A DNA stretch of 32,224 nt from an uncultured Armatimonadota bacterium (GTDB lineage: Bacteria; Armatimonadota; Fimbriimonadia; Fimbriimonadales; GBS-DC). The first letter of the stretch is position 1; each line of letters starts with the position of its first letter. Made by a program: the position numbers and the translations under genes. Below are positions 9,579-31,511 of this stretch, piece after piece. The notes under the pieces are model-generated. The model was not told where the DNA came from, made no database searches, and saw only the letters and a list, made by a program, of their open reading frames with translations. The DNA lies in contig CAKZQI010000293.1 of NCBI GenBank assembly GCA_937139515.1, positions 1 through 32,224 on the forward strand, written 5' to 3'.

Positions 9579-9695
9579 TGAGGGTGTTTGAAAAGTGCTG
9601 GGAGCGCAGGCGTCTCGACCGCTCGTGGCTTGGTCATCTTGCCCAAGTGCCCTTCACGGGCAGGATGACCGTGCCACGATTTTCCAAACACCCTC
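9579..9695. mobile_element. MITE-like element copy A (shortened), flanked by AATCGAGG/AATCGGGG
   Basis: tGAGGGTGTTTGAAAA...TTTTCCAAACACCCTC inverted ends; shares internal words with copies at 18883, 23065 and 31288. Confidence 0.75.
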
Positions 9696-9703
9696 AATCG
9701 GGG

Positions 9704-9709
9704 TATACT
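9704..9709 (+). promoter_or_regulatory. -10 box TATACT, 6 nt before hisC ATG (leaderless candidate)
   Basis: cggggTATACTtaggctATG. Confidence 0.5.
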
Positions 9710-9715
9710 TAGGCT

Positions 9716-10813
9716 ATGGTTCGCCCGCGCGCCCATGTTCTTCAAATGGAACCGTACCGTCCCGGCAAAACGCCCGAACAAATCCAACACGAGCTGGGGC
9801 TAAACGAACTAATTAAACTTTCTGCGAACGAGAACCCCTTAGGCGCCTCGCCCCGTGTCGCTGAAGCGATTCAAGAGGCGCTGTGCCACATCCATCGCTA
9901 TCCCGACGGCGCGTGTCAACTTCTGCGAGAAGCGGTGAGCGACTTCTACCAACTGCCCCAAGACCACTTTGTGTTTGGCAACGGCTCGGACGAGCTCATC
10001 CACCTGATAGGCTTAGCTTATTTAGAGGCGGGCGACGAGGTGGTAATGGGGCATCCCTCGTTCGTGCGCTATGAAGCGTCGGTACAGCTCAATCAGGCGG
10101 TGTTGAAACGGGTGCCGCTCACCAACGACTATCGCCACGACCTACCCGCAATGCTCGCTGAGGTGAGTGAGAGAACCAAACTGGTCTACATCGCCAACCC
10201 CAACAACCCCACGGGCACGATTGTCTACCGACATGAACTGGAGCATTTTATCGACCTCCTTCCAGACCATGTGCTGTTGGTGCTGGATGAGGCGTACTAC
10301 GAGTATGTTGACCATCCCGACTATCCGAACGGGCTGGACTGGGTGCGAAGGGGGGCACAGGTGCTGGTGCTTCGCACCTTCTCCAAAGCCTACGGCTTGG
10401 CTGGACTGCGGCTGGGTTATGCGGTGGCGCGCCCTGACCTGTTAGACCCGATTGAGCGCGTGCGTGAGCCGTACAATGTGAATCTGCTGGCACAGGTGGC
10501 GGGTGTCGCAGTGCTTCGCGACCAAGCGCATGTGGCACGCACGCGCGAACTGAACCGCCAATCGCTGGAAGCGTTCCAACAGGCTTGTGAGCAGATGGGG
10601 CTTCGGGTGGTGCCTTCCTACGCCAACTTCTTGCTGATAGAGATTGGTGCCCACTGCGCCCAAGTGCGCCAGCGCCTCTTGCAGATGGGAGTGATGGTGC
10701 GTTCGGGGGAGGGCTTCGGCTTGCCCCACTTCCTGCGTGTGAACACCGGCACGCCTGAGCAGAATGAGAAGTTCCTGAGAGCGCTCCAGCAGGCACTTGC
10801 GTCGTTGAAATGA
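9716..10813 (+). CDS. hisC: Histidinol-phosphate aminotransferase
   Basis: KLSANENPLGASP, ANPNNPTGT, VLDEAYYEY, RTFSKAYGLAGLRLGY motifs. Confidence 0.93.
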   Translation: MVRPRAHVLQMEPYRPGKTPEQIQHELGLNELIKLSANENPLGASPRVAEAIQEALCHIHRYPDGACQLLREAVSDFYQLPQDHFVFGNGSDELIHLIGLAYLEAGDEVVMGHPSFVRYEASVQLNQAVLKRVPLTNDYRHDLPAMLAEVSERTKLVYIANPNNPTGTIVYRHELEHFIDLLPDHVLLVLDEAYYEYVDHPDYPNGLDWVRRGAQVLVLRTFSKAYGLAGLRLGYAVARPDLLDPIERVREPYNVNLLAQVAGVAVLRDQAHVARTRELNRQSLEAFQQACEQMGLRVVPSYANFLLIEIGAHCAQVRQRLLQMGVMVRSGEGFGLPHFLRVNTGTPEQNEKFLRALQQALASLK

Positions 10814-11466
10814 GCTTCCCGACTCGTCGTGAGCGTTGGCAGAAGGTGCTCGTGTTCGCCTTCTTCTTGGTGCCGATTGTGGGCGCGGTGGTGGTGCTCA
10901 CCTCGCCGTGGTTCTTGCGCCTTCGTGCCGAGCAGATTGAGCGCAACGAGCAACTGCTCCAAGCGGTCGAGTCGGGCGACTTGAACCGCGTGAAGCAGGT
11001 CATCACGGGCGGTGCGATTGTGAACGCCCGCACGCGCTCTGGCTTGACCGCGCTGAGCTTGGCGGTCATTCGGGGGCACGACGAGATTGCGCTCTACCTC
11101 ATCGAACGCGGAGCAAGTTTGGACGCTCGCGACCGCTCGGGCGACCGCCAGCAGATGTATCCGGGCAACTCGCCTGTGCATTACGCAGCAATCTACGGGC
11201 GTGTGCGTGTGCTTCGGGCGATGCTGGAACGCAGTGTGCCTGTGGATTTGCGCGACCGCAACGGGCGCACCTTGCTGATGATGGCAGCTGAGAACGGGCA
11301 CCGAGAGACCGTGAAACTCCTGCTGGAACGCGGTGCCAACCCGAACGCTACCAGCGCGCTGGGCGAGACGGTGTTGGACTGCGCAAAGCGAAGCAACGAC
11401 GCCGAGATTGTGGCGCTGATTGAGCAGGCTAAAAGCGCTCGAGCACGCGCGCCAGCGGGCGGTTGA
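10810..11466 (+). CDS. Membrane-anchored ankyrin-repeat protein
   Basis: N-terminal TM then ankyrin repeats (GLTALSLAVIRGHDEIALYLIERGASLDARD; GRTLLMMAAENGHRETVKLLLERGANPNAT); ATGA overlap with hisC stop. Confidence 0.88.
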   Translation: MSFPTRRERWQKVLVFAFFLVPIVGAVVVLTSPWFLRLRAEQIERNEQLLQAVESGDLNRVKQVITGGAIVNARTRSGLTALSLAVIRGHDEIALYLIERGASLDARDRSGDRQQMYPGNSPVHYAAIYGRVRVLRAMLERSVPVDLRDRNGRTLLMMAAENGHRETVKLLLERGANPNATSALGETVLDCAKRSNDAEIVALIEQAKSARARAPAGG

Positions 11467-12793
11467 GCGCGTCTAAAGTCGCTGAGACGACTGCACGCGG
11501 CGCATCTTCCTTGAGCAGGGCGCTTCCCACCAGCTCTTGACGAGCCTCACCATTTTCCCAGATTAAGATGACGAACACCACAGCTTGTCCCGTCTCCCCG
11601 ACTGACTCGTTCACCTCCAAAATCGAGAGCCGTACTGTGTTGGGAAGGATGGGCGCCAGCGCGTTCAGCACCGACTCGGCGACCAGCGGTTGCATCTTCG
11701 CTTCGCCTTCGGCTTGACCCTCCAACATACGATTCTCGTACTGCAGATAGACGCGGGCACGGGCGCGCTTGCCCTCCCGTTCATACGAGACCGATTGAAT
11801 ACGAATCCTCTTTTCAGGGGGGCGCGGTTCCACCGCCGCTTGCATCGGCAAGGTGAGTTGTGCTCCCCCGCGTGCGGTGCCCATGCCCTTCATCAGCAGA
11901 CACTCTTGGCTGGCGAGGTTGATGAGGTTGTCCACCGTGGCGGCGAAGTGCACTTGCTCGCGCTCGCGCGTGCGCTTGCCCCCTTGATAGCCATAGGAGA
12001 CCGAAATCGGCTGGTCCACTTCGGGCAGGCGGATGGAACTAATTTGTCGGCTTATCTGGTGCGCCAGCAGTCCTGCCTCTTCGCGTCGGCGCAGGGTGGA
12101 CACGGCGAACTCGTCGCCCCCCCATCGGCACACCACATCGGTTTCAGGGTTGAGCTCCTCTCGGATGACCTGCGCCACACGCCGAAGCACCTCGTCACCT
12201 ACCAAGTGCCCATAACGCTTGTTGAATAGCCCGAAGTTGTCCAAGTCAAAGAACAGAATGGTGACCTCCTTGCCCTCGGCGAGCTGTTCGATGCTCCATT
12301 CGCGCAGATAGTCCGACCACGGTAGCCCCGTCATCGGGTCATAACTGCGCCCGATTTCGGTGAGCAGGTCAAACACGCTAATCATCCCCACCAGTTTGCC
12401 CTCTTCCACGATGGGCAAGAGGGTGCATTGGTGGTTGGCGAACCAATCGGCGACGGTCATCAGGGGCGACTTGGGCGAGAAGTTGGGGATGTCGGTACGC
12501 ATAATCGTGTGGATGGGCGCCTCCAAGTCCACCCCCAGAATCTGGCTCGACTCGACCACCCCCAATACCTGTTGCCCGTCGTAGACCGGGATCCCCGAAA
12601 TCTGATGTCCCCGCATCAGAATCAAGGCGGTCTGGACGGTGTGTTCTGGATTGACCCACACCCGTATTGGCTTGACAAGATGTTCTATGGTGCGCACGAG
12701 GTCATCGAGCCTCCCGCGCGAATGCCCCGCCCCATTCGCGCCTAAGTGTGCGACTTCTTCCGTGACCAGCACCCGAAGCGGGTGTGGTCTCAT
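11429..12793 (-). CDS. CBS-pair GGDEF diguanylate cyclase with extra conserved-looking C-terminal domain
   Basis: Two CBS repeats (HQISGIPVYDGQQVLGVVES; CTLLPIVEEGKLVGMISV), intact CRWGGDEFAV; C-term ARVYLQYENRMLEGQAEG...LVGSALLKEDAPRAVVSATLDALNRPL. Confidence 0.87.
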   Translation of the reverse strand: MRPHPLRVLVTEEVAHLGANGAGHSRGRLDDLVRTIEHLVKPIRVWVNPEHTVQTALILMRGHQISGIPVYDGQQVLGVVESSQILGVDLEAPIHTIMRTDIPNFSPKSPLMTVADWFANHQCTLLPIVEEGKLVGMISVFDLLTEIGRSYDPMTGLPWSDYLREWSIEQLAEGKEVTILFFDLDNFGLFNKRYGHLVGDEVLRRVAQVIREELNPETDVVCRWGGDEFAVSTLRRREEAGLLAHQISRQISSIRLPEVDQPISVSYGYQGGKRTREREQVHFAATVDNLINLASQECLLMKGMGTARGGAQLTLPMQAAVEPRPPEKRIRIQSVSYEREGKRARARVYLQYENRMLEGQAEGEAKMQPLVAESVLNALAPILPNTVRLSILEVNESVGETGQAVVFVILIWENGEARQELVGSALLKEDAPRAVVSATLDALNRPLARVLERF

Positions 12794-12877
12794 AGCAGAG
12801 CCTCCGTGCAGTCCTTTACCTTATACATACGCTAATCCCTACAGAAAATCCCACGGCAAATTTGCCAGTTTTGGGGT

Positions 12878-13762
12878 TTATCGAGTATACCACTTGCAGG
12901 GCACATATACAATCGTCAGGGCGCGTCCTCGCCCCTGACTGAGGTTGCGCAGGAGGTTGCCCGTGCGCACACCAATCTCTTCGGGCTGTTCGATGGCGAG
13001 CAGTTGACACTGGCGCGCTTGGAACCATCCCAAAGCCTCGTTGCTCCAGCTGAGAACCCCGATAGATGGGGCACGCAACACGGGCATCCCAGCTTGAGCG
13101 ACATCGTGCCCTATGTAAAAGATACCCGCTGGTGGGCGGCGCTGTGCAAGCATCTGAATACGGCCGGGGATGGCACCCCGCTGGTCTATGCCGAAGAGTT
13201 GAGGGCGCACACGCCGATTGGTGAGCAAGCCGTGCCGAAAGCCTTCCCAGAACTCGCTCACTGCACGGGGCACGGGATGATAGGCGACAACCCACACTTC
13301 GCCCCGAGCGATTTTACGCGCGAACCACGCGCCTGCCCGACGCCCCACCTCGTAGTAGTAAGTGCCCACATAGCCCAATCGGAGTGAGTCGCGGATATCG
13401 GTGCCCATCAGTACCACGGGGGTTCCCCTCTCCTGAACCGTCTGCTGAATCCAGTCGCGCGCCCACGAGTCGTTGGGCACGGCAGTGAGGGCGACCGCGC
13501 GATACTCCGTTCCTGCAGTCTGTTGAACAAGAGAGGAGCGTTCCTCGGCGGTAAAAAAGCGCCACTCAACGCTCATTCCCGGCTCGCTGAGTCGGCTCTT
13601 CAGACCGCGATCCACGGCTTCCCAATAGGGATGAGGAGCAGACTGCACGAACACCGCCATCGGGTATTGGAACTGTTCAGGCGCGGGTGCGGGCGGACGG
13701 CTCTCACAGGCGAGTAATCCCAACAGCCCCAGCCACAACGCCGCTCGAACACTGCGACGCAC
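12878..13762 (-). CDS. Periplasmic-binding-protein-like lipoprotein (sugar/LacI-type fold), no adjacent ABC transporter
   Basis: Lipobox LLAC; PYWEAVDRGLKSRL..., RRAGAWFARKIARGEVWVVAYHP..., VSEFWEGFRHGLL, GIFYIGHDVA typical of type-1 PBPs. Confidence 0.72.
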   Translation of the reverse strand: MRRSVRAALWLGLLGLLACESRPPAPAPEQFQYPMAVFVQSAPHPYWEAVDRGLKSRLSEPGMSVEWRFFTAEERSSLVQQTAGTEYRAVALTAVPNDSWARDWIQQTVQERGTPVVLMGTDIRDSLRLGYVGTYYYEVGRRAGAWFARKIARGEVWVVAYHPVPRAVSEFWEGFRHGLLTNRRVRPQLFGIDQRGAIPGRIQMLAQRRPPAGIFYIGHDVAQAGMPVLRAPSIGVLSWSNEALGWFQARQCQLLAIEQPEEIGVRTGNLLRNLSQGRGRALTIVYVPCKWYTR

Positions 13763-13767
13763 AGCGC

Positions 13768-14232
13768 TCAGTCTTGGAGGAGCAGGTTCAACTCAGGATA
13801 GAGCTGATTGTACTCCTCCACACAGCGTGGCGATTGACCAGTGAGCCAGTCGCGCAGGTAGCCCGCCAAGATAGAACCCGAAGTGAGAGTAAAGATACCG
13901 TACTGGCGATAGGCTTCGGCGCGGACAGGGTCGTTCACTTTCGCAGCGAGCCTTTGAACCCCAAACAGCTCACGCGCCATCTGTACCACCATTAGGTTCG
14001 TGTTGTCGCCACTTGTGCAGGCGACGAAGGCGTCCATCGTCTCCAGCTCCGCTTCGCGCAGGGTATCTTCGTCTAAGCCGTCGCCCAGCACGATTCGGCA
14101 CGGGGGCTGCTTGCCGAGGCGCTGTAAAGCGTCGGGCGAGCGTTCGATCATCGTCACCTCGTGCCCTGCTTGGCTCATCAGCAGAGCGAGGATGGAACCC
14201 GTGCGCCCACAACCCATAATCGCAATCTTCAT
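13768..14232 (-). CDS. TrkA-N (RCK_N) domain protein, lacking RCK_C
   Basis: MKIAIMGCGRTGSILALLMSQAGHEVTMIERSP...GDGLDEDTLREAELETMDAFVACTSGDNTNLMV. Confidence 0.85.
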   Translation of the reverse strand: MKIAIMGCGRTGSILALLMSQAGHEVTMIERSPDALQRLGKQPPCRIVLGDGLDEDTLREAELETMDAFVACTSGDNTNLMVVQMARELFGVQRLAAKVNDPVRAEAYRQYGIFTLTSGSILAGYLRDWLTGQSPRCVEEYNQLYPELNLLLQD

Positions 14233-14720
14233 CCATCTGCCTCCTCAGGGGTGCCATACAGCCAGACCTGGCAGGGCACTTTGCGCAAGACGATACTAAT
14301 CGTGTCGTCCATCGTGTATTCGGCTCGGCGTCGGTGGTAGTCCACTGCCATAAACAGCAAATCGGCTTGAAGCTCCTGAACCACTTGCACAAGGGCATGT
14401 CCGTAGCGGTGGACGGGGCGCACCTCCACGGCGAGGTCTTTGATACCCATCTCTTCGGCGATCTCGCGGGCGGCAGCGGCGAAAGTTTCGCCGGGCTTCA
14501 AGCGTTCGGGGGGGCAGTCATCAAGGCAGACCGAGCGCGAGACCTCTACCAAGCACACCACAGTGAGCTTCGCATCAAACACGCGCGCCCAATCGCAGGC
14601 TTGGCGTAGCACTTCGCGGTCGTCGGGGGTGTTCGCAAAGGGAACCAGCAGGTTTTGAGGGAGCGGTTCCTCGTGTGCCTGCTTAGCGCGCCGTCGCCAA
14701 CTAAACAGTTTGAGACCCAT
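14229..14720 (-). CDS. UspA-like universal stress family protein
   Basis: QNLLVPFANTPDDREVLRQACDWARVFDAKLTVVCLVEVS...ADLLFMAVDYHRRRAEYTMDDTISIVLRKVPCQVWL; 4-bp ATGA overlap with TrkA-N gene; start at MGLKLF. Confidence 0.7.
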   Translation of the reverse strand: MGLKLFSWRRRAKQAHEEPLPQNLLVPFANTPDDREVLRQACDWARVFDAKLTVVCLVEVSRSVCLDDCPPERLKPGETFAAAAREIAEEMGIKDLAVEVRPVHRYGHALVQVVQELQADLLFMAVDYHRRRAEYTMDDTISIVLRKVPCQVWLYGTPEEADG

Positions 14721-14722
14721 GG

Positions 14723-14905
14723 CTATTTTCGTTCGCGGGGCGTGAGGAAGCGCTTGGTCATCCACAAGCGCACAAAGCCCCACGCTATTAGCAGCCCGCC
14801 GAGGAACCAACCCTCGCTTCGTCCCTGTACAAACGCTTCGTAGTAAATCACTCCAAGCCCCAGCACGACCATCAGAGCGCTGATTCCATAGCGAAGCGAG
14901 CTCAT
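14723..14905 (-). CDS. Small two-TM membrane protein
   Basis: MSSLRYGISALMVVLGLGVIYYEAFVQGRSEGWFLGGLLIAWGFVRLWMTKRFLTPRERK. Confidence 0.6.
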   Translation of the reverse strand: MSSLRYGISALMVVLGLGVIYYEAFVQGRSEGWFLGGLLIAWGFVRLWMTKRFLTPRERK

Positions 14906-14912
14906 AGCATTA

Positions 14913-16357
<1,445 letters not shown>

Positions 16358-16361
<4 letters not shown>

Positions 16362-17719
16362 GGCTGTGGCGAGATTATACCTTCGGGGTTCAGGGCGACG
16401 CCGTACACATCGTACACATCGGCGCGCTCAATCTGAACGGATATGAAACTGCCCACAGGCGCGTGGCACTGGCGCACATAGACCAGCCCGTCCACATCGG
16501 GCGCGTCGCGGTGCGAGCGTCCAATCGCCCAGTTGCCGTCTTCAGTGTACGATTCGATTAGCACCTGCATCGTCTTGCCCACCCATGCTTGATTCTTTCG
16601 GTACGAGATGGGTTGTTGGGCGCGCATCAATTCGTCAAATCGGGCGCGCTTGACCCGAAACGGCACTTGGTCGGGTATCTGTGCGGAGGGAGTGCTCTTC
16701 TCACGCGAGTAGACAAACGCCCCCACACGGTCTAACTCGGCTTCGTACAGGAACTCCAGCAGGTTCTGGAAGTGCGTCTCGCTCTCGCCGGGAAAGCCGA
16801 CGATGAAGGTGGTGCGAATGGCGATGGTAGGCATCGCCTCGCGCAGTTTGCGTATCATCTTCAGGTAGGTGGCGCCGTCGCCCGGTCGGCGCATCGCTCG
16901 CAGAATGTCGCGGTCGGCGTGTTGCAGGGGCACATCCAGATAAGGCACCACCTTAGGAAGCGACGCCATCGTCTCTATCAGCGCATCGGTCACGCGAGAG
17001 GGATAGGCATAGTGGATGCGTATCCATTCCACCCCTTCCACAGCGTTGAGCTCCCTCAGCAGGTTAGGGAGCATAAACTGCTTATACAGGTCGTAGCCGT
17101 ACTGGGTGGTGTCTTGAGCGATGAGATTGATTTCTGTGGTGCCGTTTTGGGCGAGCCAGTGTGCCTCCTCCAGAATGCGCTCGATGGGCTTGCTGACATG
17201 CTTGCCTCGGAACGAGGGGATGGTGCAGAAGGTACATTGGTGGTCGCACCCTTCAGATACTTTGAGATAGGCAGTCCACGGTGCTCGGCTTCGCAGGCGG
17301 GTGGGCACTTCAGCCCAGCGGTGGTGAGGCGGTTGAATATCGGTAAGGGGCGCGTTAGACTGGCGTGTGGTGTTCACAATTTCGGCGAAGCGCGCCATCT
17401 GCCCCACACCCACGAAGGCGTCCACTTCGGGAAACTGCTGACGCAGTTGCTCGCCCATGCGCTGAACCATACAGCCTGCCACAATCACGCGCTCGGTGCG
17501 CCCTTCGCGCTTCATCTGGAGCGCCTGACGAATGACCTCCATCCCCTCGCGCTTCGCCGACTCCAAGAAACCGCAGGTGTTGATGACCACTACCTCTGGC
17601 GAGTCGGATGCGGTGTCCAGCTGGTAGCCCGCTTGGTGGAGCACGCCTGCAATCTCTTCGGAGTCGACCTCGTTTTTGGCACATCCCAGCGTAATGATAC
17701 GCACGATGGGGCGTTTCAT
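16358..17719 (-). CDS. rimO: Ribosomal protein S12 methylthiotransferase
   Basis: [23 protein letters not shown]; radical-SAM [18 protein letters not shown]-like tail [20 protein letters not shown] overlap with gatB. Confidence 0.93.
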
Positions 17720-17726
17720 CGGGGGT

Positions 17727-17732
17727 AGTATA
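17727..17732 (-). promoter_or_regulatory. -10 box TATACT for rimO, 7 nt before ATG
   Basis: Minus strand ATGGGTATACTacccccgATG. Confidence 0.5.
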
Positions 17733-17745
17733 CCCATCAGTGGGG

Positions 17746-17751
17746 TACAAT
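17746..17751 (+). promoter_or_regulatory. -10 box TACAAT for coaD, 7 nt before GTG 17759
   Basis: gtggggTACAATcttgggcGTG. Confidence 0.45.
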
Positions 17752-17758
17752 CTTGGGC

Positions 17759-18295
17759 GTGGAGAACGGCAGGCAGACTCAAAGGCGAGCGGTGTACCCG
17801 GGCAGTTTTGACCCGCCGACGCTGGGACACTTGGATGTGATTACACGCTCCGCCCAACTGTTTGACGAAGTGATTGTCGCGGTGGCAATCAACTCCCAAA
17901 AGCGCCCCTTGTTCACCCTGCAAGAGCGTACCGAGATGCTGGAACAGTGCTGTCAGCACTTGCCGAATGTGCGCGTGCTGGCGTTGGAAGGGCTGTTGGT
18001 CGCCTTTGCCCAGCAGATTGGCGCCTGCGCGATTGTGCGCGGGCTGCGTGCGGTCTCCGATTTTGAATACGAGTTCCAGATGGCGACGATGAACCGCCAA
18101 CTCGCCCCAGAGATAGACACCTGCTTCCTGATGACCCATCAACAGTACGCCTTCCTGTCGTCTTCTATGGTCAAGGAAGTGGCGCGCTTAGGGGGCGATG
18201 TGCGCGCGTTCGTGCCCGAAGTGGTCGCCCAGCGCCTCAGTCAAAAATTCCATCCAAAGGGGGCAGGAGTCCCCAGCCCGACCGACGAATCCTAA
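17759..18295 (+). CDS. coaD: Phosphopantetheine adenylyltransferase (GTG start at 17759; alternative TTG at 17753)
   Basis: AVYPGSFDPPTLGHLDVI; IVRGLRAVSDFEYEFQMATMNRQL; FLSSSMVKEVARLGGDV. Confidence 0.95.
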   Translation: MENGRQTQRRAVYPGSFDPPTLGHLDVITRSAQLFDEVIVAVAINSQKRPLFTLQERTEMLEQCCQHLPNVRVLALEGLLVAFAQQIGACAIVRGLRAVSDFEYEFQMATMNRQLAPEIDTCFLMTHQQYAFLSSSMVKEVARLGGDVRAFVPEVVAQRLSQKFHPKGAGVPSPTDES

Positions 18296-18320
18296 AACCC
18301 GCATAGGGGAGGCATCTGTT

Positions 18321-18872: not shown

Positions 18873-18882
18873 ACTACTCCCT

Positions 18883-19069
18883 GAGGGTGTTCGAAAAATC
18901 GTAGCACGGGCATCCTGCCCGTGAAAAATCGGGTAGGTCAGGGCAGAATGGGTACGCTGGGAGCGCAGGCGTCTGCCTGCATCGTCGTTGAGGACCGCTT
19001 GGTGAGGGATGCCCATGCCATGCATTCGGGCGGGACGCCCGCGATCTCCATGATTTTTTGAACACCCTC
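18883..19069. mobile_element. MITE-like element copy B
   Basis: GAGGGTGTTCGAAAAATC...GATTTTTTGAACACCCTC inverted ends with several internal hairpins (GCACGGGCATCCTGCCCGTG etc.). Confidence 0.8.
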
Positions 19070-19078
19070 GCTCCCCCC

Positions 19079-19108
19079 TTGAATTGTCCACACACGCTGG
19101 GGTATACT
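19079..19108 (+). promoter_or_regulatory. tRNA-Glu promoter (TTGAAT-N18-TATACT)
   Basis: -35 19079-19084, -10 19103-19108; predicted TSS just before the tRNA. Confidence 0.6.
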
Positions 19109-19120
19109 TTCATTCTGCGT

Positions 19121-19197
19121 GGGGCCATGGTCTAGGGGACTAGGACGCCTGGTTTTCAGCCAGGAGGACGGGGGTTCGAATCCCCCTGGCCCTACCA
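19121..19197 (+). tRNA. tRNA-Glu (anticodon TTC), CCA encoded
   Basis: GGGGCCA TG GTCT AGGGGACT AGGAC CCTGG-TTTTCAG-CCAGG GGGGG-TTCGAAT-CCCCC TGGCCCT A CCA; G1:U72 closing pair. Confidence 0.93.
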
Positions 19198-19265: not shown

Positions 19266-21335
<2,070 letters not shown>

Positions 21336-21378
21336 TTAGTATGCCTCCCTGTATGCCACAGCGTGTGGTTGTGTACAA

Positions 21379-21384
21379 GATTAT
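21379..21384 (-). promoter_or_regulatory. Putative gyrB -10 region (GGTATAAT)
   Basis: Minus strand ttaGGTATAATcttgta, about 50 nt before ATG with SD AGGGAGG. Coordinates approximate. Confidence 0.4.
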
Positions 21385-21392
21385 ACCTAATC

Positions 21393-22100: not shown

Positions 22101-22179
22101 CGGCTGTCGGCTCCTGCTAGCAATTTTCGGCAGGAAGGACGGCTTTCCCTGCTGGTTTTATCGAACCCTCGTCCCAGCG

Positions 22180-22494: not shown

Positions 22495-22573
22495 CGCCAG
22501 CCCTCCGTTCAAAACGACCACTTCTGATTACTTGGGATGCCTACTCTGTGTTCCTACGATTGATGGAAGCCTC

Positions 22574-22700
22574 CCAAAACCGTGGCACGGGCATCCTGCC
22601 CGTGAGCAGAAACAGGTGGCGGACACAGTAAGCGTTCTTAGGTAAGATGCCCAAACCACGAGCTGGGAACGCAGGCGGTAGCACTCAACAGCGAGCTTGG
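22574..22700. mobile_element. Degenerate MITE-like copy C (no clear inverted ends)
   Basis: Contains CGTGGCACGGGCATCCTGCCCGTGAG and GGGAACGCAGGCG words of the family. Confidence 0.5.
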
Positions 22701-22719
22701 GTTCAACTCGAAAAGCCCA

Positions 22720-23063
22720 CCCTGTCACCCTGAGCGTCAGCGAAGGGTCTTTCCGTGTGTTTTATTGAGATTCTTCGCTTCGCTCAGAATGACAAAAGAG
22801 GGGCGCCCGAATGACAGTCCTCCACCCTGTCACCCTGAGCGTCAGCAAAGAGTCTCTCTTTGTGTTTTATTGAGAGAGATTCTTCGCTTCGATCAGAATG
22901 ACAGCCCCTCCACACCGTCACTCTGAGCAATAGCGAAGGGTCTGGCTCGGAGTTGCATTGAGATTCTTCGCCGCGCTCAGAATGACATCCTTTACCTTGA
23001 CACCCTGAGTGTTAGAAGGGTCTGGGCTTAGGGGTCTTGGAAGTTCTTCGCTTCGCTCAGAAG
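22720..23063. repeat. Array of about 4 dispersed hairpin repeat units
   Basis: GTCACCCTGAGCGTCAGCGAAGGGTCT...GAGATTCTTCGCTTCGCTCAGAATGAC repeated with variation at about 22724, 22827, 22913 and 22999. Confidence 0.85.
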
Positions 23064-23064
23064 A

Positions 23065-23258
23065 GAGGGTGTTTGAAAAATCACTGGGAGCGCGGGCGTC
23101 TCGCCCGCCCATGGCTTGGGCATCCTTGCCCAAGAAACTCTCAGGATATTGCAGGCGAGACGCCTGTGTTCCCAGCGGACACATCCTATCCGACCTCGTG
23201 TTTTGCGTGCTTCGCTACACGGGCAGGATGCCCGTGCCACGATTTTTCAAACACCCTC
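23065..23258. mobile_element. MITE-like element copy D, nested in the hairpin repeat
   Basis: GAGGGTGTTTGAAAAATC...GATTTTTCAAACACCCTC ends; flanks TCGCTCAGAA / TCGCTCAAAA. Confidence 0.8.
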
Positions 23259-23391
23259 TCGCTCAAAATGACAAAGAGGGAGCAGAATGACAGAGGGGGG
23301 GCGAGGGGGTGAGGTTCTCCGAAACCTGTGCCGCCGTCAATTTTCAAACACCCTCACTCCCGTACAGGTATACTTAGAAGGGGTGAACCGA

Positions 23392-23850
23392 ATGTTTCAG
23401 CAACAACGAAGGGAGCGTCGCCCGAAACCGCCCAGCGCCAGCCAACTCAGGGCGATGGAACGCCGAACCCATGACCTTATCAACGAGCAGAGAAAGCGCG
23501 CCAAGTTAGCGCCTTTAGCATGGGACGATCGGGTAGCTCAGGTGGCGCGCGCCCACAGCCAACGCATGGCAGACGCCAACTTCTTTGACCACACCGATCC
23601 CCGATTCGGCGATGTGGATAAACGCTTAGACCGATTCGGCGTGCAATGGCAGATGTGTGGCGAGAACATCTTCACCTGCAACGGTTTCCGTAATCCCGAA
23701 CAGCTTGCCGTGCGCGAGTGGATGAATAGCCCCAGACACCGCCAAAATATCCTGACCGCCGAGTTCACACACGCGGGTATCGGAATCGTCTACCGCTCGG
23801 ACGGAAGCTACTACTTCACTCAGGTGTTCATTCGCCCGCTCAAGCGTTAG
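23392..23850 (+). CDS. CAP/SCP-domain protein (alternative GTG start at 23383)
   Basis: THDLINEQRKRAKLAPLAWDDRVAQVARAHSQRMADANFFDHTDPRFGDVDKR...GENIFTCN...NSPRHRQNILTAEFTHAGIGIVY. Confidence 0.9.
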   Translation: MFQQQRRERRPKPPSASQLRAMERRTHDLINEQRKRAKLAPLAWDDRVAQVARAHSQRMADANFFDHTDPRFGDVDKRLDRFGVQWQMCGENIFTCNGFRNPEQLAVREWMNSPRHRQNILTAEFTHAGIGIVYRSDGSYYFTQVFIRPLKR

Positions 23851-23884
23851 GCGACTCTGTAGAATACGGTAATCTTTCGCTGTA

Positions 23885-23913
23885 GGGTATCCTATAATTA
23901 GAAGAAGATACCC
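23885..23913 (+). promoter_or_regulatory. Inverted repeat GGGTATC-N15-GATACCC enclosing TATAAT upstream of recX (candidate operator)
   Basis: Direct reading; -10 TATAAT at 23893-23898. Confidence 0.5.
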
Positions 23914-23926
23914 TCGCTGGCACTCT

Positions 23927-24436
23927 GTGACCGCGCCGTTTCAGAAACCGTTCAGAGGTGGGCAAGCGATGGTTCCGACGCAGGAATGCCTTGCGCAAGC
24001 AATTGAGATGGCGCTCCGCTGGCTCAGGAGGCGTGACTACAGCCAGCAAGAGATGACCCAACGCCTGCTTGCAAAGGGTTTTTCGGAAGAGACGGTTCAG
24101 CAGGCGATTGAATGGCTCGTAGAAGAGCGATGGCTTTCCGATACCCGATTGGCGAACCGATTAGTGCAGAAGTTCACCGAGAGCCAGCCATCTGGCATTG
24201 CACGCATCGAGCGCGAGTTGGAACAGCGCGGGCTGGCACCGCCCGAGTCTCTGCAGATCGACGAGGAGACCCGTGCCGTGCAAGCTTTGACCCAACGGTT
24301 TGGAGAGCCACCCGAGCACGCGGACGCCCGAACGGTCGCCCGATGGTTCCGCTTCCTGCTCCAACGCGGTTTCGAGCCTGAGATCGCCGAGAACGCCCTC
24401 CATCGCTGGAACCCCGCCCTGAACGAGACCCTGTAA
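23927..24436 (+). CDS. recX: RecX family regulatory protein (GTG start; ATG alternative at 23969)
   Basis: ALRWLRRRDYSQQEMTQRLLAKGFSEETVQQAIEWLVEERWLSDTRLANRLVQ. Confidence 0.85.
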   Translation: MTAPFQKPFRGGQAMVPTQECLAQAIEMALRWLRRRDYSQQEMTQRLLAKGFSEETVQQAIEWLVEERWLSDTRLANRLVQKFTESQPSGIARIERELEQRGLAPPESLQIDEETRAVQALTQRFGEPPEHADARTVARWFRFLLQRGFEPEIAENALHRWNPALNETL

Positions 24437-24476
24437 ATGGGGAGTCCCCTCCCCGACTCGCTCAGGAGGCGATACG

Positions 24477-26069
24477 ATGGAAACCATTTGGATTATTATC
24501 ATAGCCGTTGTGGCAGTGCTCTCAGCGTTCGCTGGCTACCAGATTGCCAAGCGCAAACAGGTCAGCGAGCTGAGCCTGCACTCTCACAAAGAACTTCAAG
24601 AGGCAGAAGAGAAACTGCGCCAAATCCAACAACAGATTGCGCAGAGAGAACAAGAGCGCACGCAACTGGAGCGCGATTGCGAGACGACCCTGCGTGAGGC
24701 GAATGTCAAGGCGCGCGAAGAGGCGCACCGCATCATCGAACAGGCAGAGCAAGAAGCCCGCGAGAAACGCACCGAAATCCTCCGACTGGAACAGCGACTG
24801 CTCCAGCGTGAGGAACTGCTGGAACACCGCTTTGAACTGTTGGAGCAGAAAGAGCATACGCTGATGGAACGCGAGGCTCTGCTAACTAAGAAGCAAGGCG
24901 AACTGCGCGAGGTGCTCGCTCAGCGTCGCTTTGAGCTGGAACGAATCGGCGGAATGAGCGCCGACCAAGCGCGCGAAATCCTGTTGAGAGAGGTGCGCGA
25001 CGAAATCGAGCACGAAGCGACCCTCCTCGCCAAGCAGATTGAAGAGGAGGCTCGACGCGACGCCGAGCGGCGCGCCCGAATGATTATCCTGGATACGATT
25101 CAGCGCTGTGTGGTGGACCATGTCGCCCAAAACACCATCACGGTCATCCATCTGCCCAACGAGGATATGAAAGGGCGTATCATCGGGCGCGAGGGACGCA
25201 ACATCCGCCACTTTGAACATGTGACGGGCGTTGATTTGATTATCGACGAGACGCCTGAGGCGGTCACACTCTCCTCGTTTGAACCCGTGCGCCGAGAGAT
25301 CGCACGCATTACCCTCACCCGCCTCATCGAGGACGGGCGTATCCACCCCGCACGAATTGAAGAAGAGTACGAACGCGCCAAAGCGGAGGTCGAACGGCGT
25401 GTGTGGCAGGCGGGCGAGGAAGCCGTGCTGCAGGTAGGGCTGACTGGGATGCACCCCGAAATCGTGCGCACGCTGGGCAAACTGCGCTACCGCACCAGCT
25501 ACGCCCAAAATGTGTTAGACCACTCCATCGAGGTGGCGATGCTGGCAGGTCTCATCGCTTCGGAGCTGGGGATGGACACGCGCCTCGTGAAGCGCGCTGC
25601 GCTCCTGCACGACATCGGCAAAGCCTTAGAGAACTCTAACGACGGTCCGCACGCTCTGGTAGGGATGGACTTCCTACGCCGATACGGCGAGAGCGAGATT
25701 GTGTGCAACGCTGTGGGCGCCCACCACTACGATATCGAACCGCTCGGCTTGGAAGCCCATGTGGTGATTATCGCCGACTCCATCTCTGCGGCGCGCCCTG
25801 GCGCTCGGCGCGAGTCGCTCCAGCAGTTCCTCAAGCGCATGCAAGACTTGGAGCGCATTGCCACCAGCTTTGAGGGCGTGGAGAAGGTGTACGCCATCCA
25901 AGCGGGGCGTGAGGTGCGCGTGCTGGTCAAACCGAACGAGGTGGACGACCTGCGCGCCCATCAGCTCGCCCGTGAGATTGCCCACAAAATCCAGTCGGAG
26001 CTGGAGTACCCGGGACAAGTCAAGGTGACGGTGGTGCGTGAGGTGCGTGCTCACCACATCGCCCACTAA
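24477..26069 (+). CDS. rny: Ribonuclease Y
   Basis: N-terminal TM and coiled coil, KH GRIIGREGRNIRHFEHVTGVDLIIDETPEAVTLSSFEPVRREIA, HD domain LLHDIGKALE. Confidence 0.97.
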   Translation: METIWIIIIAVVAVLSAFAGYQIAKRKQVSELSLHSHKELQEAEEKLRQIQQQIAQREQERTQLERDCETTLREANVKAREEAHRIIEQAEQEAREKRTEILRLEQRLLQREELLEHRFELLEQKEHTLMEREALLTKKQGELREVLAQRRFELERIGGMSADQAREILLREVRDEIEHEATLLAKQIEEEARRDAERRARMIILDTIQRCVVDHVAQNTITVIHLPNEDMKGRIIGREGRNIRHFEHVTGVDLIIDETPEAVTLSSFEPVRREIARITLTRLIEDGRIHPARIEEEYERAKAEVERRVWQAGEEAVLQVGLTGMHPEIVRTLGKLRYRTSYAQNVLDHSIEVAMLAGLIASELGMDTRLVKRAALLHDIGKALENSNDGPHALVGMDFLRRYGESEIVCNAVGAHHYDIEPLGLEAHVVIIADSISAARPGARRESLQQFLKRMQDLERIATSFEGVEKVYAIQAGREVRVLVKPNEVDDLRAHQLAREIAHKIQSELEYPGQVKVTVVREVRAHHIAH

Positions 26070-26078
26070 GAGCAGGGG

Positions 26079-26084
26079 TATAAT
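26079..26084 (+). promoter_or_regulatory. -10 box TATAAT, 6 nt before HIT ATG (leaderless candidate)
   Basis: agcaggggTATAATccgattATG. Confidence 0.55.
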
Positions 26085-26090
26085 CCGATT

Positions 26091-26606
26091 ATGAGCGAGC
26101 GACTGTGGGCGCCGTGGCGGATGCAGTATGTATCCACCGCCAACCAGCCAAGTGAGGGCTGTATCTTTTGCAACAAGCCCGCCGAGGCGAACGACGCCGA
26201 GAACCTCATCGTCGCCCGCTCGGAGCTCTGCTACGCCATTTTGAACCTGTATCCCTACACCAGTGGGCACTTGATGGTCGTGCCCTACCGCCACACGAGC
26301 GACTTCACCCGCCTCAGCGCGGAAGAGAGTTTAGACCTGTTCCAGCTCGCTCAGCAGTGTGTGTCGGCTCTGGAGCGCACCTATCGCCCCGATGGATTCA
26401 ATATTGGCTTCAACTTGGGTCGCTCAGCAGGGGCAGGGATTGAGGAGCACCTGCATATGCATATTGTGCCCCGCTGGTATGGCGACACGAACTTTATGAC
26501 CACGATTGGCGAGGTGCGTGTGTTGCCCGAGTCGCTGGAACAGACCTACCAACGCCTGGCAAGCGCTTTGCAGGAGGTGCGTGCCGATGGAAGAGCGCCC
26601 CGTTGA
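26091..26606 (+). CDS. HIT family hydrolase/Ap4A phosphorylase-like
   Basis: LWAPWRMQYV, CIFC, NLYPYTSGHLMVVPYRH, HLHMHIVPRW histidine triad. Confidence 0.93.
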   Translation: MSERLWAPWRMQYVSTANQPSEGCIFCNKPAEANDAENLIVARSELCYAILNLYPYTSGHLMVVPYRHTSDFTRLSAEESLDLFQLAQQCVSALERTYRPDGFNIGFNLGRSAGAGIEEHLHMHIVPRWYGDTNFMTTIGEVRVLPESLEQTYQRLASALQEVRADGRAPR

Positions 26607-27258
26607 AGAGCTGTTGGCGGAAGTCGCCGAGCGTGCGCGCGTCTGCACCCACTGCCACCTATCGCAGACACGCACGCAGGTCGTGTTCGGGGAGGGCAAC
26701 CCGCGTTCCCCTCTAGTGATTGTGGGCGAGGGACCTGGCGAGCAAGAGGACGCCACAGGACGCCCGTTTGTGGGGCGTGCGGGCGCCCTGCTGGACAAGG
26801 CACTGCGCGATGCGGGCATGGCACGGCGCCATGTGTACATCTGCAATGTGGTTAAGTGCCGTGCGTTCATCATAGAAAACGGGCGTGTTCGCAATCGCCC
26901 GCCCACTCAAGAGGAGATTCAAGCCTGCTTGCCGTGGCTGGATGCCCAGCTCACGATTATCCGTCCGCTGGTGATAGTGTGCTTAGGTGCGCCTTCTGCA
27001 TCCACCCTTATCCATAAGAACTTCAAGATGATGCAGGAGCGTGGACAGTGGTTTGCCTCCAAGTGGGCGCCTGCCGTGATTGCAGCGCTCCATCCTGCCT
27101 ACATCCTACGGCAAGCGGGTGAAGCCTACGAGCGTGCCTACCAGTCCCTCGTGAGCGACCTACAATCAGCACGCCAAAAGGTGATTGAACTCCGACGCAA
27201 ACAAGAAGAGCAACAGCCCATCCAACCTGAGGGTGAGGAACAACTAAGCCTATTCTGA
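26587..27258 (+). CDS. Family-4 uracil-DNA glycosylase (UDGa) with C-terminal QLSLF clamp-binding-like motif
   Basis: CTHCHLSQTRTQVVFGEGNPRSPLVIVGEGPGEQEDATGRPFVGRAGALLD, NVVKCR, ALHPAYILRQ; C-terminus EGEEQLSLF. Confidence 0.9.
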   Translation: MEERPVEELLAEVAERARVCTHCHLSQTRTQVVFGEGNPRSPLVIVGEGPGEQEDATGRPFVGRAGALLDKALRDAGMARRHVYICNVVKCRAFIIENGRVRNRPPTQEEIQACLPWLDAQLTIIRPLVIVCLGAPSASTLIHKNFKMMQERGQWFASKWAPAVIAALHPAYILRQAGEAYERAYQSLVSDLQSARQKVIELRRKQEEQQPIQPEGEEQLSLF

Positions 27259-27264
27259 GGGAGG

Positions 27265-27270
27265 TATAAT
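27265..27270 (+). promoter_or_regulatory. -10 box TATAAT, 7 nt before methyltransferase ATG
   Basis: gggagGTATAATcgcttgtATG. Confidence 0.5.
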
Positions 27271-27277
27271 CGCTTGT

Positions 27278-28504
27278 ATGCAGGAGCGTTCTCAGAGGGG
27301 ACTCGGCGAGGTAGAGTACGGTTTGCTATCAGAAACCGAGCATAGCGATGATTTTTCTCTCAACGGTGAAACAGTGGGGTACATCTGCGAGCGCCAGTTA
27401 AGCTTATCGATGTGGGAGGCAGAAGCGAGCCAGTCTTGTCCCTCTGAGTCCCACTCTACAAATGGGATTCAGGTAGAGCCCCCTCTTGAGCCTTTTGTCG
27501 ATAGGGTCATCTGCGGAGACTGTAAAGATATACTGGCAAAAATCCCCGAGAACACTATCGATGCTATCATCACCAGCCCACCTTACTATCGCCAACGAGA
27601 ATACGGAGTGGAAACCACGCTGATAGGAAACGAAGAGGCGTTGGAGGACTACATCGAGAACTTAGTTTCTATATTTCGGAGATGCCTTGAACTCCTCAAG
27701 CCTACTGGGAGCCTCTTCGTGAACTTGGGTGATAAATACGAAGAGGGGTCGCTCTTGCTTGTACCCTACCTGTTCGCGCACCGTTTGACACAAGCCACAG
27801 GAGCGAAGCTGATTAATGTGATTACTTGGGTCAAACCGAATCCTGAGCCTCGCCAGTACAAGAGGCGTTTAGTGAGCAGTACCGAGCCGATATTTCATTT
27901 CGTGAAGACCAGTGAATATAAGTACTTCTATGACCAATTTTGTTCACACAGGGATGTTGCGCGGAAGCGGGTCAAAGGAGGGGACAACATTGGCAAACGA
28001 TACTTGGAACTCATAAAGCAGTCCGAACTCACACCTGAGCAGAAAAGCTTGGCACGCAAAGAAATCATCCAAGCGATTCAGGAAGTCAAGCAAGGAGAGA
28101 TTGCTTCGTTTCGCGTGAAGATACGCGGAATACATTCCGAAGCCTACGGTGGGCACGAGGGCGGGCGAAAGAGCCATCTTAAGTCAAAAGGATTCACCGT
28201 GATAAAAATGTATGACCGTGCTATACGGCGTGATGTGATTGAATGCCCTATTCTCTCGCTGAAATCTCTGAAGCACCCTGCAGTTTATCCAGAGTACCTT
28301 GTTCAAGAACTGCTCAAGCTAACCACCCAGCCCGGCGATGTGGTTTTGGACCCGTTCTTGGGGTCGGGAACGACCTCTGTTGTTGCAAAGCGAATGGCGA
28401 GACACTATCTCGGCATTGAAATCAATCCCGACTATTGTGAAATTGCTAATGAGCGTCTTGAAAATACATCGGTTAGTCCTGATGCGGTGGAATTCTACCT
28501 ATAG
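27278..28504 (+). CDS. Site-specific DNA methyltransferase (TSPPYY; beta-class N4-C/N6-A)
   Basis: FVDRVICGDCKDILAKIPENTIDAIITSPPYYRQREYG (motif IV) ... VVLDPFLGSGTTSVVAKRMARHYLGIEINPDYCEIANERL (motif I/X); AT-richer than neighbours. Confidence 0.9.
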   Translation: MQERSQRGLGEVEYGLLSETEHSDDFSLNGETVGYICERQLSLSMWEAEASQSCPSESHSTNGIQVEPPLEPFVDRVICGDCKDILAKIPENTIDAIITSPPYYRQREYGVETTLIGNEEALEDYIENLVSIFRRCLELLKPTGSLFVNLGDKYEEGSLLLVPYLFAHRLTQATGAKLINVITWVKPNPEPRQYKRRLVSSTEPIFHFVKTSEYKYFYDQFCSHRDVARKRVKGGDNIGKRYLELIKQSELTPEQKSLARKEIIQAIQEVKQGEIASFRVKIRGIHSEAYGGHEGGRKSHLKSKGFTVIKMYDRAIRRDVIECPILSLKSLKHPAVYPEYLVQELLKLTTQPGDVVLDPFLGSGTTSVVAKRMARHYLGIEINPDYCEIANERLENTSVSPDAVEFYL

Positions 28505-28507
28505 CTT

Positions 28508-29470
28508 ATGCGAGAAGAGCCTCATTTGAAAATATATAGCGACCGCTCGATGTTGGTTCATGAAGACGGATCTGTGGAGGTTTTCGCTGAGGGGAAACAA
28601 GCTCCAAGCGCCCTCCAGCGATACAAACACATCAAGGAGAATCTGAGTAGCGGATGGTTTGAAAATTTGGTTGTTGAGGTCTCACGAGACCCAGCCCTAC
28701 TCAGTCCACTCTCCGAAAACGACACCGAGTTTATAAACAATCTTGTGAACGCTTTCAATAGTGAGTATGGACGCGCGGTGGTGGGACTTTTTGTCGTTCA
28801 ATTGGTCGTGAAGAGCCTCGCACAAGACCAATCGATACGCCTACATAAAGGAGGCTCGAGTCAATTCTCGTGGATTGAGGGTATATCAATGCGCTCCATC
28901 GATAGCCAGTTCATTACGCCCGTATTAAGAAAGTACAATCTTTTGTCTGTGAACGCTGATGGTGTGTTTATGACGCGCACCCTTGCAGAGAACTACCCCT
29001 ACACGCGGTTTTACAAAGCCAGTATTCGTGGGGTCAGGGATACCTGGCTTGAGCTGGTCGACAGAGTTGAGAGCAGACAACTAGAGCCTTTTAGTGCGCT
29101 GAAGTATGTTTTGGCGTGTTTGTTCAATCGTACTCAGGAATTCTCTAAATCTGTTGAAACCACCCTGAAAGCGCTCGAGCAGTTATTGGCTACGCCGAGT
29201 CTGTCTCCCAGTCAGTTGCCCCCGATTATAAAACAGCACATAAGTGGGTCTACCTACTCAGCGAGATTGCTCGAAATCGCTGTTCACAGCTTCTTGCAGG
29301 TTTTGGACGAACGCGGCTACTTAGAAGGAAAGCTCGTACCTCTATGCCAAATGAGAACTGCCAACAAAAAGCACCGCAACATAGCCGATGTGGAGATTGT
29401 CAGCCCTACGAATGAGAAAGTCGTTCTTGAGTCTATGTCAAAATCAGAGGTAGTCAGCGATGAGAACTAA
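28508..29470 (+). CDS. Candidate restriction endonuclease partner, possibly C-terminally truncated
   Basis: Immediately downstream of the MTase (3-nt gap), AT-richer, C-terminal HRNIADVEIVSPTNEKVVLES resembling the start of a PD-(D/E)xK core. Confidence 0.5.
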   Translation: MREEPHLKIYSDRSMLVHEDGSVEVFAEGKQAPSALQRYKHIKENLSSGWFENLVVEVSRDPALLSPLSENDTEFINNLVNAFNSEYGRAVVGLFVVQLVVKSLAQDQSIRLHKGGSSQFSWIEGISMRSIDSQFITPVLRKYNLLSVNADGVFMTRTLAENYPYTRFYKASIRGVRDTWLELVDRVESRQLEPFSALKYVLACLFNRTQEFSKSVETTLKALEQLLATPSLSPSQLPPIIKQHISGSTYSARLLEIAVHSFLQVLDERGYLEGKLVPLCQMRTANKKHRNIADVEIVSPTNEKVVLESMSKSEVVSDEN

Positions 29471-30275
29471 TACCCTTTTGATTGTATTAGCGTTGATGTT
29501 TATTGCGGTTCCTGTAGTATCCCAACAACCCAAAACCCAAACGGTACGCATCCCCGGCACCACCGTGGAGTTTGAACTGGTGTACATCCCTCCCGGCACG
29601 ATTGAACTCCCTGACCCCGAAGCCCCCAGCAAGATGACCACCGTAGAGGTCAAGGGCTTCTGGATAGGGCGCACTGAGGTCACTTGGGACGAATATGGCA
29701 CCTACGCCTTCAACAGCGACATCAAGTCCACTGAGAAGGAGCGTGAAGCCGATGCGATTGCCAAACCCAGCAAGCCCTACGGTGCGATTGATCGAGGCTT
29801 CGGCTACGAGGGGAACCCTGCCATCGGTATGACCTACATGGGCGCCACGCGCTATTGCGAATGGCTCAGCCGAATGACGGGCAAGAAGTTCCGATTGCCC
29901 ACCGAAGCCGAATGGGAGTATGTGGCGCAAGCAGGCGGACGCTGGAAACGCGAACCCTTCAGCCCCGAAGAGCTGAACAAATACGCCTGGTACAGCGCTA
30001 ACGCCGACAACAAGCCCCACAAGGTCGCTCGGAAACAACCCAATCCTTGGGGTATTTTCGACATCCTTGGGAATGTGAAAGAGTGGTGTCAGGGAATGGA
30101 TGGCAAGCCTGTAGCCTGCGGTGGTTCGTTTCAAGACCCCGCAGAAGAGGTTCATCCAGGGGCACGCTCCTACCAAGACCCCAGCTGGAATATGACCGAC
30201 CCCCAGTATCCCAAGAGTCGATGGTGGCTGTCTGATGCCCCCTTCGTCGGCTTGCGCGTGGTGATGGAAGAGTAG
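29460..30275 (+). CDS. Secreted SUMF1/EgtB/PvdO-type (FGE-sulfatase domain) protein
   Basis: Signal peptide; FELVYIPPGTIELP, VKGFWIGRTEVTWDEY, CEWLSRMTGKKFRLPTEAEWEYVAQAGG, NPWGIFDILGNVKEWCQ, GGSF, VGLRVV. Confidence 0.93.
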   Translation: MRTNTLLIVLALMFIAVPVVSQQPKTQTVRIPGTTVEFELVYIPPGTIELPDPEAPSKMTTVEVKGFWIGRTEVTWDEYGTYAFNSDIKSTEKEREADAIAKPSKPYGAIDRGFGYEGNPAIGMTYMGATRYCEWLSRMTGKKFRLPTEAEWEYVAQAGGRWKREPFSPEELNKYAWYSANADNKPHKVARKQPNPWGIFDILGNVKEWCQGMDGKPVACGGSFQDPAEEVHPGARSYQDPSWNMTDPQYPKSRWWLSDAPFVGLRVVMEE

Positions 30276-30309
30276 GTGTTGTAGCACCTCTGGCGAAACT
30301 TGTCCTGCG

Positions 30310-31278
30310 ATGGCACTGAAAACGGCACTGCTGGGTACGGGCGGAATAGGACGCTATTTGGCGAAGCAAGCGCGCCAGTGCGAGGCAATCGAGCTGGTGG
30401 CACTCTACGACCCCGACTACGACAGCGCCTCGCGCTTGGCTCAGGAACTGGATATGCCCTACTACGCCCAGCTCCAAGCGGTATGGGATAAGCCAGAGGT
30501 AGAAGCGGTGCTGATTGCCACACCGCCCTACACCCACGCCGAGCTCTGCCTACAGGCGCTGGAGCATGGCAAACATGTGTTTTGTGAAAAGCCGATGGCG
30601 CCTACATTAGAAGATTGTGATGCGATGCTGGAGTCGGCTCGCCAAAATCAGCGCGTGCTGATGGTGGGGCAAGTGCTTCGGCTGTTCCCTCTCTTCTGGC
30701 AGAGCCAGCAGTGGCTCCATCAGGGCGTGATAGGCGAGCCAGTCCACTTCAGCGTGCGACGAATGGAGCACTCGGCACGCCTGTTCAGCACGGGGTGGCG
30801 CGCCGACCCCACAAAAAGCGGAGGCGCGCTCCTTGAAATCAATGTGCACGAGTTGGATTACCTGCGCTGGGTTGGGGGCAACTACCGGGTGGTGTGCGCT
30901 CAGGGACGCCAGCCCTTGCCTGAACCTGCCTTCATCCAGTGCTGGCACGCTCAACTGGAGTTCGAAAGCGGCGCCACAGGGCAGATAGAAGCCAGCATCA
31001 TCGACCCCGCAGGCGAGTATACAATACGCATCCTCGGCACGGAGGGCGTCATCCACTTCGCAGGGTTTGGCAGTGAAATCCACTACCGCACACACCAAGG
31101 CGAGGAGCAAACACTCACCGCAGAGCAGATTGGACTACCTGACCCCTACACCCACGAACTCTGTGCGTTCGCCCGCGCCGTGCTTTATGGCGACCCGCTA
31201 CCCTGCGATGGGCACGACGGGCGCGAGGCGGTCGCAAACGCACTAGAGTGCCTCAAGGCGATAGGTGCCAAGTGGTGA
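30310..31278 (+). CDS. Gfo/Idh/MocA family oxidoreductase
   Basis: LLGTGGIGRYLAKQ, VLIATPPYTHAELCLQALEHGKHVFCEKPMAPTLEDCDAML; GGALLEINVHELDYLRW. Confidence 0.93.
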   Translation: MALKTALLGTGGIGRYLAKQARQCEAIELVALYDPDYDSASRLAQELDMPYYAQLQAVWDKPEVEAVLIATPPYTHAELCLQALEHGKHVFCEKPMAPTLEDCDAMLESARQNQRVLMVGQVLRLFPLFWQSQQWLHQGVIGEPVHFSVRRMEHSARLFSTGWRADPTKSGGALLEINVHELDYLRWVGGNYRVVCAQGRQPLPEPAFIQCWHAQLEFESGATGQIEASIIDPAGEYTIRILGTEGVIHFAGFGSEIHYRTHQGEEQTLTAEQIGLPDPYTHELCAFARAVLYGDPLPCDGHDGREAVANALECLKAIGAKW

Positions 31279-31287
31279 GTGAGATAT

Positions 31288-31462
31288 AAGGGTGTTCCTA
31301 AAATCGTGGCACGAGCATCCTGTCCGTGAAAACAGGATGAGTCCGCTGAGAGCGCAGGCGTCTCGCCTGCACGGTCGTTGAGAACTGCTTGGGCAAGAAT
31401 ACCCAACCCACGATTAGCGGGCAGGACGCCCGCGATCCCCGTGATTTTTCAAACACCCTCAC
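31288..31462. mobile_element. MITE-like element copy E flanked by perfect 8-bp TGAGATAT direct repeats
   Basis: AGGGTGTTCCTAAAATC...GATTTTTCAAACACCCT ends; TGAGATAT at 31280-31287 and 31463-31470. Confidence 0.85.
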
Positions 31463-31511
31463 TGAGATATTGACTTTTAGCACCCACCGCCAGAGGTACA
31501 ATACTAATGAG

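Follow-up and report, generated by a model that had tools for sequence, protein, structure and literature searches.

Insertion upstream of promoters, at a set distance, has been described in bacteria for elements of the Mutator superfamily (p-MULT 3 and 4): TnGBS, ISLre2 and some ISKra4 members enter the DNA upstream of sigmaA promoters (PMC3942029). The insertion point lies 13–17 bp upstream of the -35 box, the duplications are 8–9 bp and the behavior was termed atypical among prokaryotic elements; contact with the RNA polymerase initiation complex has been proposed (PMC3942029). IS903 is an insertion sequence (IS) of ~1050 bp with 18-bp ends and a 9-bp duplication (PMC3281130). Miniature inverted-repeat transposable elements (MITEs) of bacteria are in general short and gene-less, with IS-like ends, target duplications and high copy number (PMC10969869), and the family described here shares these features. 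It is present in the window, the 32,224-nucleotide contig C293 of a Fimbriimonadales-like metagenome-assembled genome of the Armatimonadota (G000, 2.69 Mb in 299 contigs, called here the own genome). Very probably these are IS5-type MITEs mobilized by an ISAae1/IS903-like IS, and their insertion is biased to sigma70-type promoters. Promoters throughout are sequence predictions.

The true element end is G-AGGGTGTT(T/C)GAAAAATC, 18 bp long, i.e. GAGGGTGTT(T/C)GAAAAATC, and the initial G is shown by alignment of the flanks. A search with the 17-bp end, allowing up to 3 mismatches, gives 256 matches in the own genome and 3 for the reversed control pattern; the window holds 9, compared with 0.07 in shuffles. 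Elements are ~95–310 bp in length and mostly intergenic. Behind the same ends lie several unrelated fillers, one rich in hairpins, as in the window, one with 'TGTATCGACCTCACCCCC' and one with 'AGTTGTTGCCCTCACCCCC', and the hairpin modules are mostly, not exclusively, near element ends. Among 32 complete copies flank identity is highest at a duplication length of 9 (63% versus 28% for shuffled flanks), and with at most one mismatch there are 12 copies for a length of 9 bp and 6 for 10 bp (shuffles 0.43 and 0.18). The sequence-only reading had proposed MITE-like non-autonomous elements, mobilized in trans, with 8–10-bp duplications. Duplications of 9 or 10 bp, in numbers well beyond those of shuffled flanks, support that proposal together with the genome-wide conserved ends and an IS with matching ends. 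The elements are short and non-coding with inverted ends and 9/10-bp duplications, and an autonomous element has the same ends; they are MITEs, and they have moved in the past. A structured RNA or a palindrome of the repetitive extragenic type, with no transposon involved, has next to no probability. It would suit the internal hairpin modules, the high copy number and the mostly intergenic sites, but not the duplications, the unrelated fillers or the matching IS, and an Rfam scan of the window at gathering scores finds tRNA-Glu only and leaves the elements unmatched. An RNA or regulatory element is rejected on the duplications and the lack of an Rfam match.

The elements hold a fixed position relative to promoter-like sequences, a target rule of insertion abutting the -35 box that was missed by the sequence-only reading and is not discoverable from the window alone. 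TTGAC is seen 25 times within 80 bp of 127 ends, 21 of them at outward positions 9–11, where its reverse complement is never found. TTGA is found at positions 8–12 of 34 ends, and in 14 of these a -10 box matching TATAAT in at least 5 of 6 positions follows 16–18 bp on; the background for the same -10 test is 1.0% of 903 TTGA sites. Scanning the whole own genome with TTGACN(17-19)TATAMT gives 34 near-consensus promoters (control 2). Twelve of them carry the exact ACACCCTC 8–10 bp upstream, with 0 in the control and 0.002 expected, and at least 15 are occupied when one or two mismatches are allowed. A shift control gives 18 of 114 at the offset versus 0–2 with the interval shifted away. Either end can face the promoter: in the complete copies of the own genome it is the left end in 7, the right end in 7 and both in none. 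Adjacent elements with one duplication copy between them are seen, for example, at C47 (CGAACCCCT) and C275 (AGGGTTGAG), an arrangement that re-insertion at the same site explains.

Occupancy depends on both hexamers. These counts, and the intergenic counts below, come from 755 kb of the own genome in contigs mostly picked for carrying elements, a choice that inflates absolute rates and should not create the contrasts. With a good -35 and a poor -10, occupancy is 0.2–0.4% (one outlier cell, 1/73); it reaches 17% when the -10 matches at 5/6 and 43% when it is perfect. Conversely, a good -10 with a poor -35 gives 0.3–0.6%, rising to 15% with a 5/6 -35 and 44% with a perfect one. When both hexamers are good, 12 of 49 sites are occupied and control offsets give 0–1 of 49; with a single good hexamer the rate is ~0.3–0.5%. 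High occupancy needs a good -35 and a good -10, which suggests guidance beyond TTGAC itself. The main rival is direct recognition: the transposase would read only TGACA beside its 9-bp target, and the link with promoters would be a by-product of the -35 sequence TTGACA and of selection against insertion in genes. TTGAC-like flanks without a -10 are ~ten-fold enriched over background, copies D and E of the window and several others adjoin TGACA or TTGACT without a canonical -10, and the site of the related ISAae1, TTGTA-N9-TTACAA, has dyad symmetry. However, at fixed -35 quality occupancy climbs with -10 quality, and among intergenic TTGAC sites, which are free of selection against gene disruption, 7 of 26 with a -10 are occupied versus 2 of 163 without (p=1e-5; gene calls here are crude, being longest frames). 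We hold direct recognition as the sole cause to be possible, if on the improbable side. TGACA recognition and polymerase guidance may both contribute, since the enrichment persists at TTGAC-like sites that lack a -10.

The 17-bp end is also found in relatives, in the same family only and patchily, with 73 matches in one genome and none in several; other families of the order show stray single end matches only. The exact pattern occupies 18 of 61 near-consensus promoters in Bacterium HR15 (G001), 10 of 39 in Fimbriimonadales bacterium KatS3mg016 (G011), and 6/28, 6/36, 4/38, 4/26 and 5/12 in others. Three genomes of the family have no occupied near-consensus promoter, and reversed controls are 0 in every relative. 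For two promoters that have homologs across species, occupancy varies. The first carries an element in G011 and in G016, not the same one, and is empty in G003 and G008; at the second, G013 and G016 have an element and G009 and G011 do not. Inspection suggests that the supposed empty site G011:C2:83k is a decayed element end, and it is not used. At loci L343–L346 a conserved leader (GGGCGGGCATCCTGTGAAACCAGG...), which we take to resemble a cobalamin riboswitch, follows a promoter that was hit in two species and is free in two others. The free promoters bear on another explanation, that the elements bring or make promoters, as mobile promoters or regulatory elements, and are retained for this function. 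The tight association of element and promoter agrees with it, and the A/T-rich end ATTTTTCAAA would fall in the UP-element region. On the other side, the duplication separates the end from the -35 box, the -35/-10 spacers vary by site and in the own genome no complete copy has a promoter on both sides. We consider this explanation very improbable as a whole; in its form of an element-carried promoter it is rejected on the differing spacers and the free homologous promoters. A residual effect of the element on promoter strength is possible.

An autonomous partner exists, an IS with matching ends that is complete in KatS3mg016; in the own genome a fragment lies at a contig edge. The KatS3mg016 IS measures 1026 bp, its 18-bp ends (GAGGGTGTTCGAAAAATC) match perfectly and it holds an open DDE_Tnp_1 frame. 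In the own-genome fragment (G000:C236:1-852) the frame is open from contig base 1 and stops just ahead of a perfect right end, and this right end adjoins TTGACA-18-TAGAAT. The two transposases are 41–44% identical, both score above the cut-off of PF01609 and the alignment shows D, D and E(6)K (VDGTG, VGD.LYG and R(3)E(6)K). At the C83 contig edge a second own-genome end has similar subterminal sequence. Many contigs of this genome (e.g. C35, C85, C105, C117, C233, C244, C265, C285) stop ~60–80 bp inside an element end; the family is therefore a main reason for breaks in the assembly, in which the autonomous IS has probably been collapsed or is absent. The IS is found in three named relatives, KatS3mg016, HR15 and Armatimonadetes bacterium JP3_11. 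At KatS3mg016 loci L090 and L091, some copies, the full-length IS among them, have a TTGAC box on either side, the two boxes divergent and each ~9 bp away, and have no matching duplication; recombination between neighboring copies is a possible cause. The DDE_Tnp_1 gene at G000:C269 was dropped as a partner, having no such ends in its locus and IS4 as its best model match.

The nearest named element in a plasmid collection is ISAae1, an IS5-family element on the Aquifex aeolicus plasmid ece1. Its transposase is 31–35% identical to those found here, its ends match at 13 and 14 of 18 positions, its length is ~1 kb and its 9-bp duplication is perfect. Its single copy lies 8 nt upstream of the promoter-like TTTACA-16-TATACT, so that the promoter habit may predate this bacterial family, a comparison with one copy in another phylum. 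IS903 is similar in length, in its 18-bp ends (11/18 identical) and in the 9-bp duplication, known here from the MITEs; PF01609 is shared, and PF13737 just at cut-off. In contrast, the IS903B transposase is just 18% identical and scores 358 on NF033579, while those found here score 59 and 34 bits, under the cut-off of 140. A promoter at the offset is seen at 0/26 sampled IS903 ends (p=0.025 against the family here). Since its transposases score under the family model that IS903B passes, the element is classified by these sequence comparisons as IS5-type and ISAae1-like, and the IS903 group proper is rejected. The Mutator superfamily is rejected as well: there is no Mutator, IS256, ISLre2 or ISKra4 model match and PF01609 is matched instead; a Mutator-type model search of the transposases gives only a weak ISH6 match (16.9 bits, cut-off 240). 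The likeness to TnGBS, ISLre2 and ISKra4 is in fixed-distance insertion upstream of promoters, with another transposase superfamily and a distance of 8–10 bp instead of 13–17 bp. Most of those elements are oriented, whereas here both orientations occur, as in ISKra4 members with near-perfect ends. MITEs are the bulk of copies here, and none are mentioned for the Mutator elements in PMC3942029. A term search of the bacterial MITE review (PMC10969869) finds no promoter-adjacent target rule, and no report of promoter homing by the IS5 family was found in open-licence literature.

In the window, the four copies with inverted ends reported by the sequence-only reading are all present, with bounds adjusted to those in Table 1. 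Their duplications, most of them as had been described, vary in quality. Copy A is flanked by AATCGAGGT (9571-9579) and AATCGGGGT (9696-9704), 9 bp with 8/9 matching, and a TATACT box adjoins it. Copy D has TCGCTCAGAA/TCGCTCAAAA, 10 bp and 9/10, followed by TGACA. For copy E a perfect duplication had been claimed. It is present (AGTGAGATAT/ACTGAGATAT, 10 bp, followed by TGACT) but matches at 9/10. For copy B, described as having only a weak CTCCC match, the duplication ACTACTCCCT/GCTCCCCCCT is weak but better than that, 10 bp with 7/10. Neither copy D nor copy E has a canonical -10 at the right spacing from its TGACA/TGACT junction. Copy B has full-length relatives elsewhere in the own genome, 90–94% identical. 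When the flanks of copy D are joined they restore a repeat whose unoccupied form lies ~290 bp off, at 22774-22794. A second dispersed repeat, TTCTTCGCTTCGCTCAGAATGACA, forms tandem-like clusters at 236-331, 5085-5226 and 22717-23062, with 105 copies (at most 3 mismatches) in the 755 kb, and copy D is inserted in one such cluster. The suggested solitary right end is there, and of the suggested decayed copy at 22574-22700 the hairpin modules stand while the ends are not recognizable. No transposase lies within the window, as had been stated; one is present elsewhere in the own genome. For the comparison of empty sites, the hisC upstream regions of nine relatives contain no copy A-like element with intact ends. 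G004 and HR15 retain the GGTATACT box at the place of copy A, and G007 and G010 have an end-like sequence (3 mismatches) further upstream. The tRNA-Glu gene beside gyrB was not found in the relatives, so the copy B promoter is not comparable.

Table 1. Element copies and associated features in the window
Feature	Position	Strand	Length or sequence	Context
MITE copy A	9580-9695	+	116 bp	directly upstream of hisC
MITE copy B	18883-19069	+	187 bp	directly upstream of tRNA-Glu promoter
Copy B target promoter	19079-19114	+	TTGAAT - 18 bp - TATACT	5' of tRNA-Glu (19121-19197)
Hairpin modules, remnant at best	22576-22700	+		modules present, no recognizable ends
MITE copy D	23065-23258 (possibly from 23063)	+	194 bp	inside TTCGCTTCGCTCAGAATGACA repeat
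Solitary element end	23338-23355	-		2 mismatches
MITE copy E	31288-31460	+	173 bp	element ends and duplication

Three other repeats are seen in the window. The contig start truncates an array of the 21-bp unit AATGTTTCCGCGAGTGTCGGG at positions 1-147. A perfect 32-bp direct repeat, CAGGAGGTAATCAAACCGATGAGCAAACGAAC, occurs twice in 503-573, 39 bp apart, and duplicates a ribosome-binding site and start codon. Positions 21357-21388 and 32131-32162 form a 32-bp inverted pair (81%) that contains AGGTATAATCTTGTAC, which may be a regulatory or promoter sequence common to both.

We propose that the MITEs are various fillers between the 18-bp ends of the ~1-kb IS5-type IS, whose DDE transposase would move them in trans with duplications of 9, sometimes 10 bp; mobilization in trans is suggested by the shared ends, duplication length and target. 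The cut is just 5' of TGACA in the -35 hexamer and the duplication spans about -36 to -45, placing the element directly upstream of the core promoter. The same promoter can be hit again, giving tandem elements with one duplication copy between them. Besides TGACA, either RNA polymerase holoenzyme bound at the promoter or properties of promoter DNA would guide the transposition complex. In a stronger form of the proposal, homing to the holoenzyme evolved independently in an IS5-superfamily transposase: insertion would require a functional sigma70 promoter with both hexamers, would put the duplication at -36 to -45 and would have filled with MITEs at least a third of one genome's near-consensus promoters. 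We give this an even chance. Several points weigh against the proposal. Of 38 complete copies only 14 show a recognizable promoter at the right offset and the remainder have a partial TGACA-like flank or none, so that targeting amounts to a strong bias and falls short of a rule; within the window the full target pattern is seen at copy B only. The KatS3mg016 IS is without a matching duplication and no stop precedes the right end in its frame, the own-genome IS is cut off by the contig edge, and the activity of any single transposase copy is only putative. Guidance by promoter-bound polymerase is inferred from sequence.

If the proposal is true, promoter-upstream targeting, so far Mutator-type, would have had another origin with an IS5-type transposase, and a second superfamily of transposases would offer a bacterial counterpart of Ty3 targeting. 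The guide, whether RNA polymerase, sigma or promoter DNA, would be testable by comparing two unrelated enzymes, and a promoter-homing transposase could serve for promoter mapping. The elements would mark strong promoters, as natural footprints, in uncultured and little-studied bacteria. For the elements themselves, insertion at promoters would be a safe-site strategy allowing high copy number, and would show how a mobile element passes a hundred copies in a gene-dense genome.

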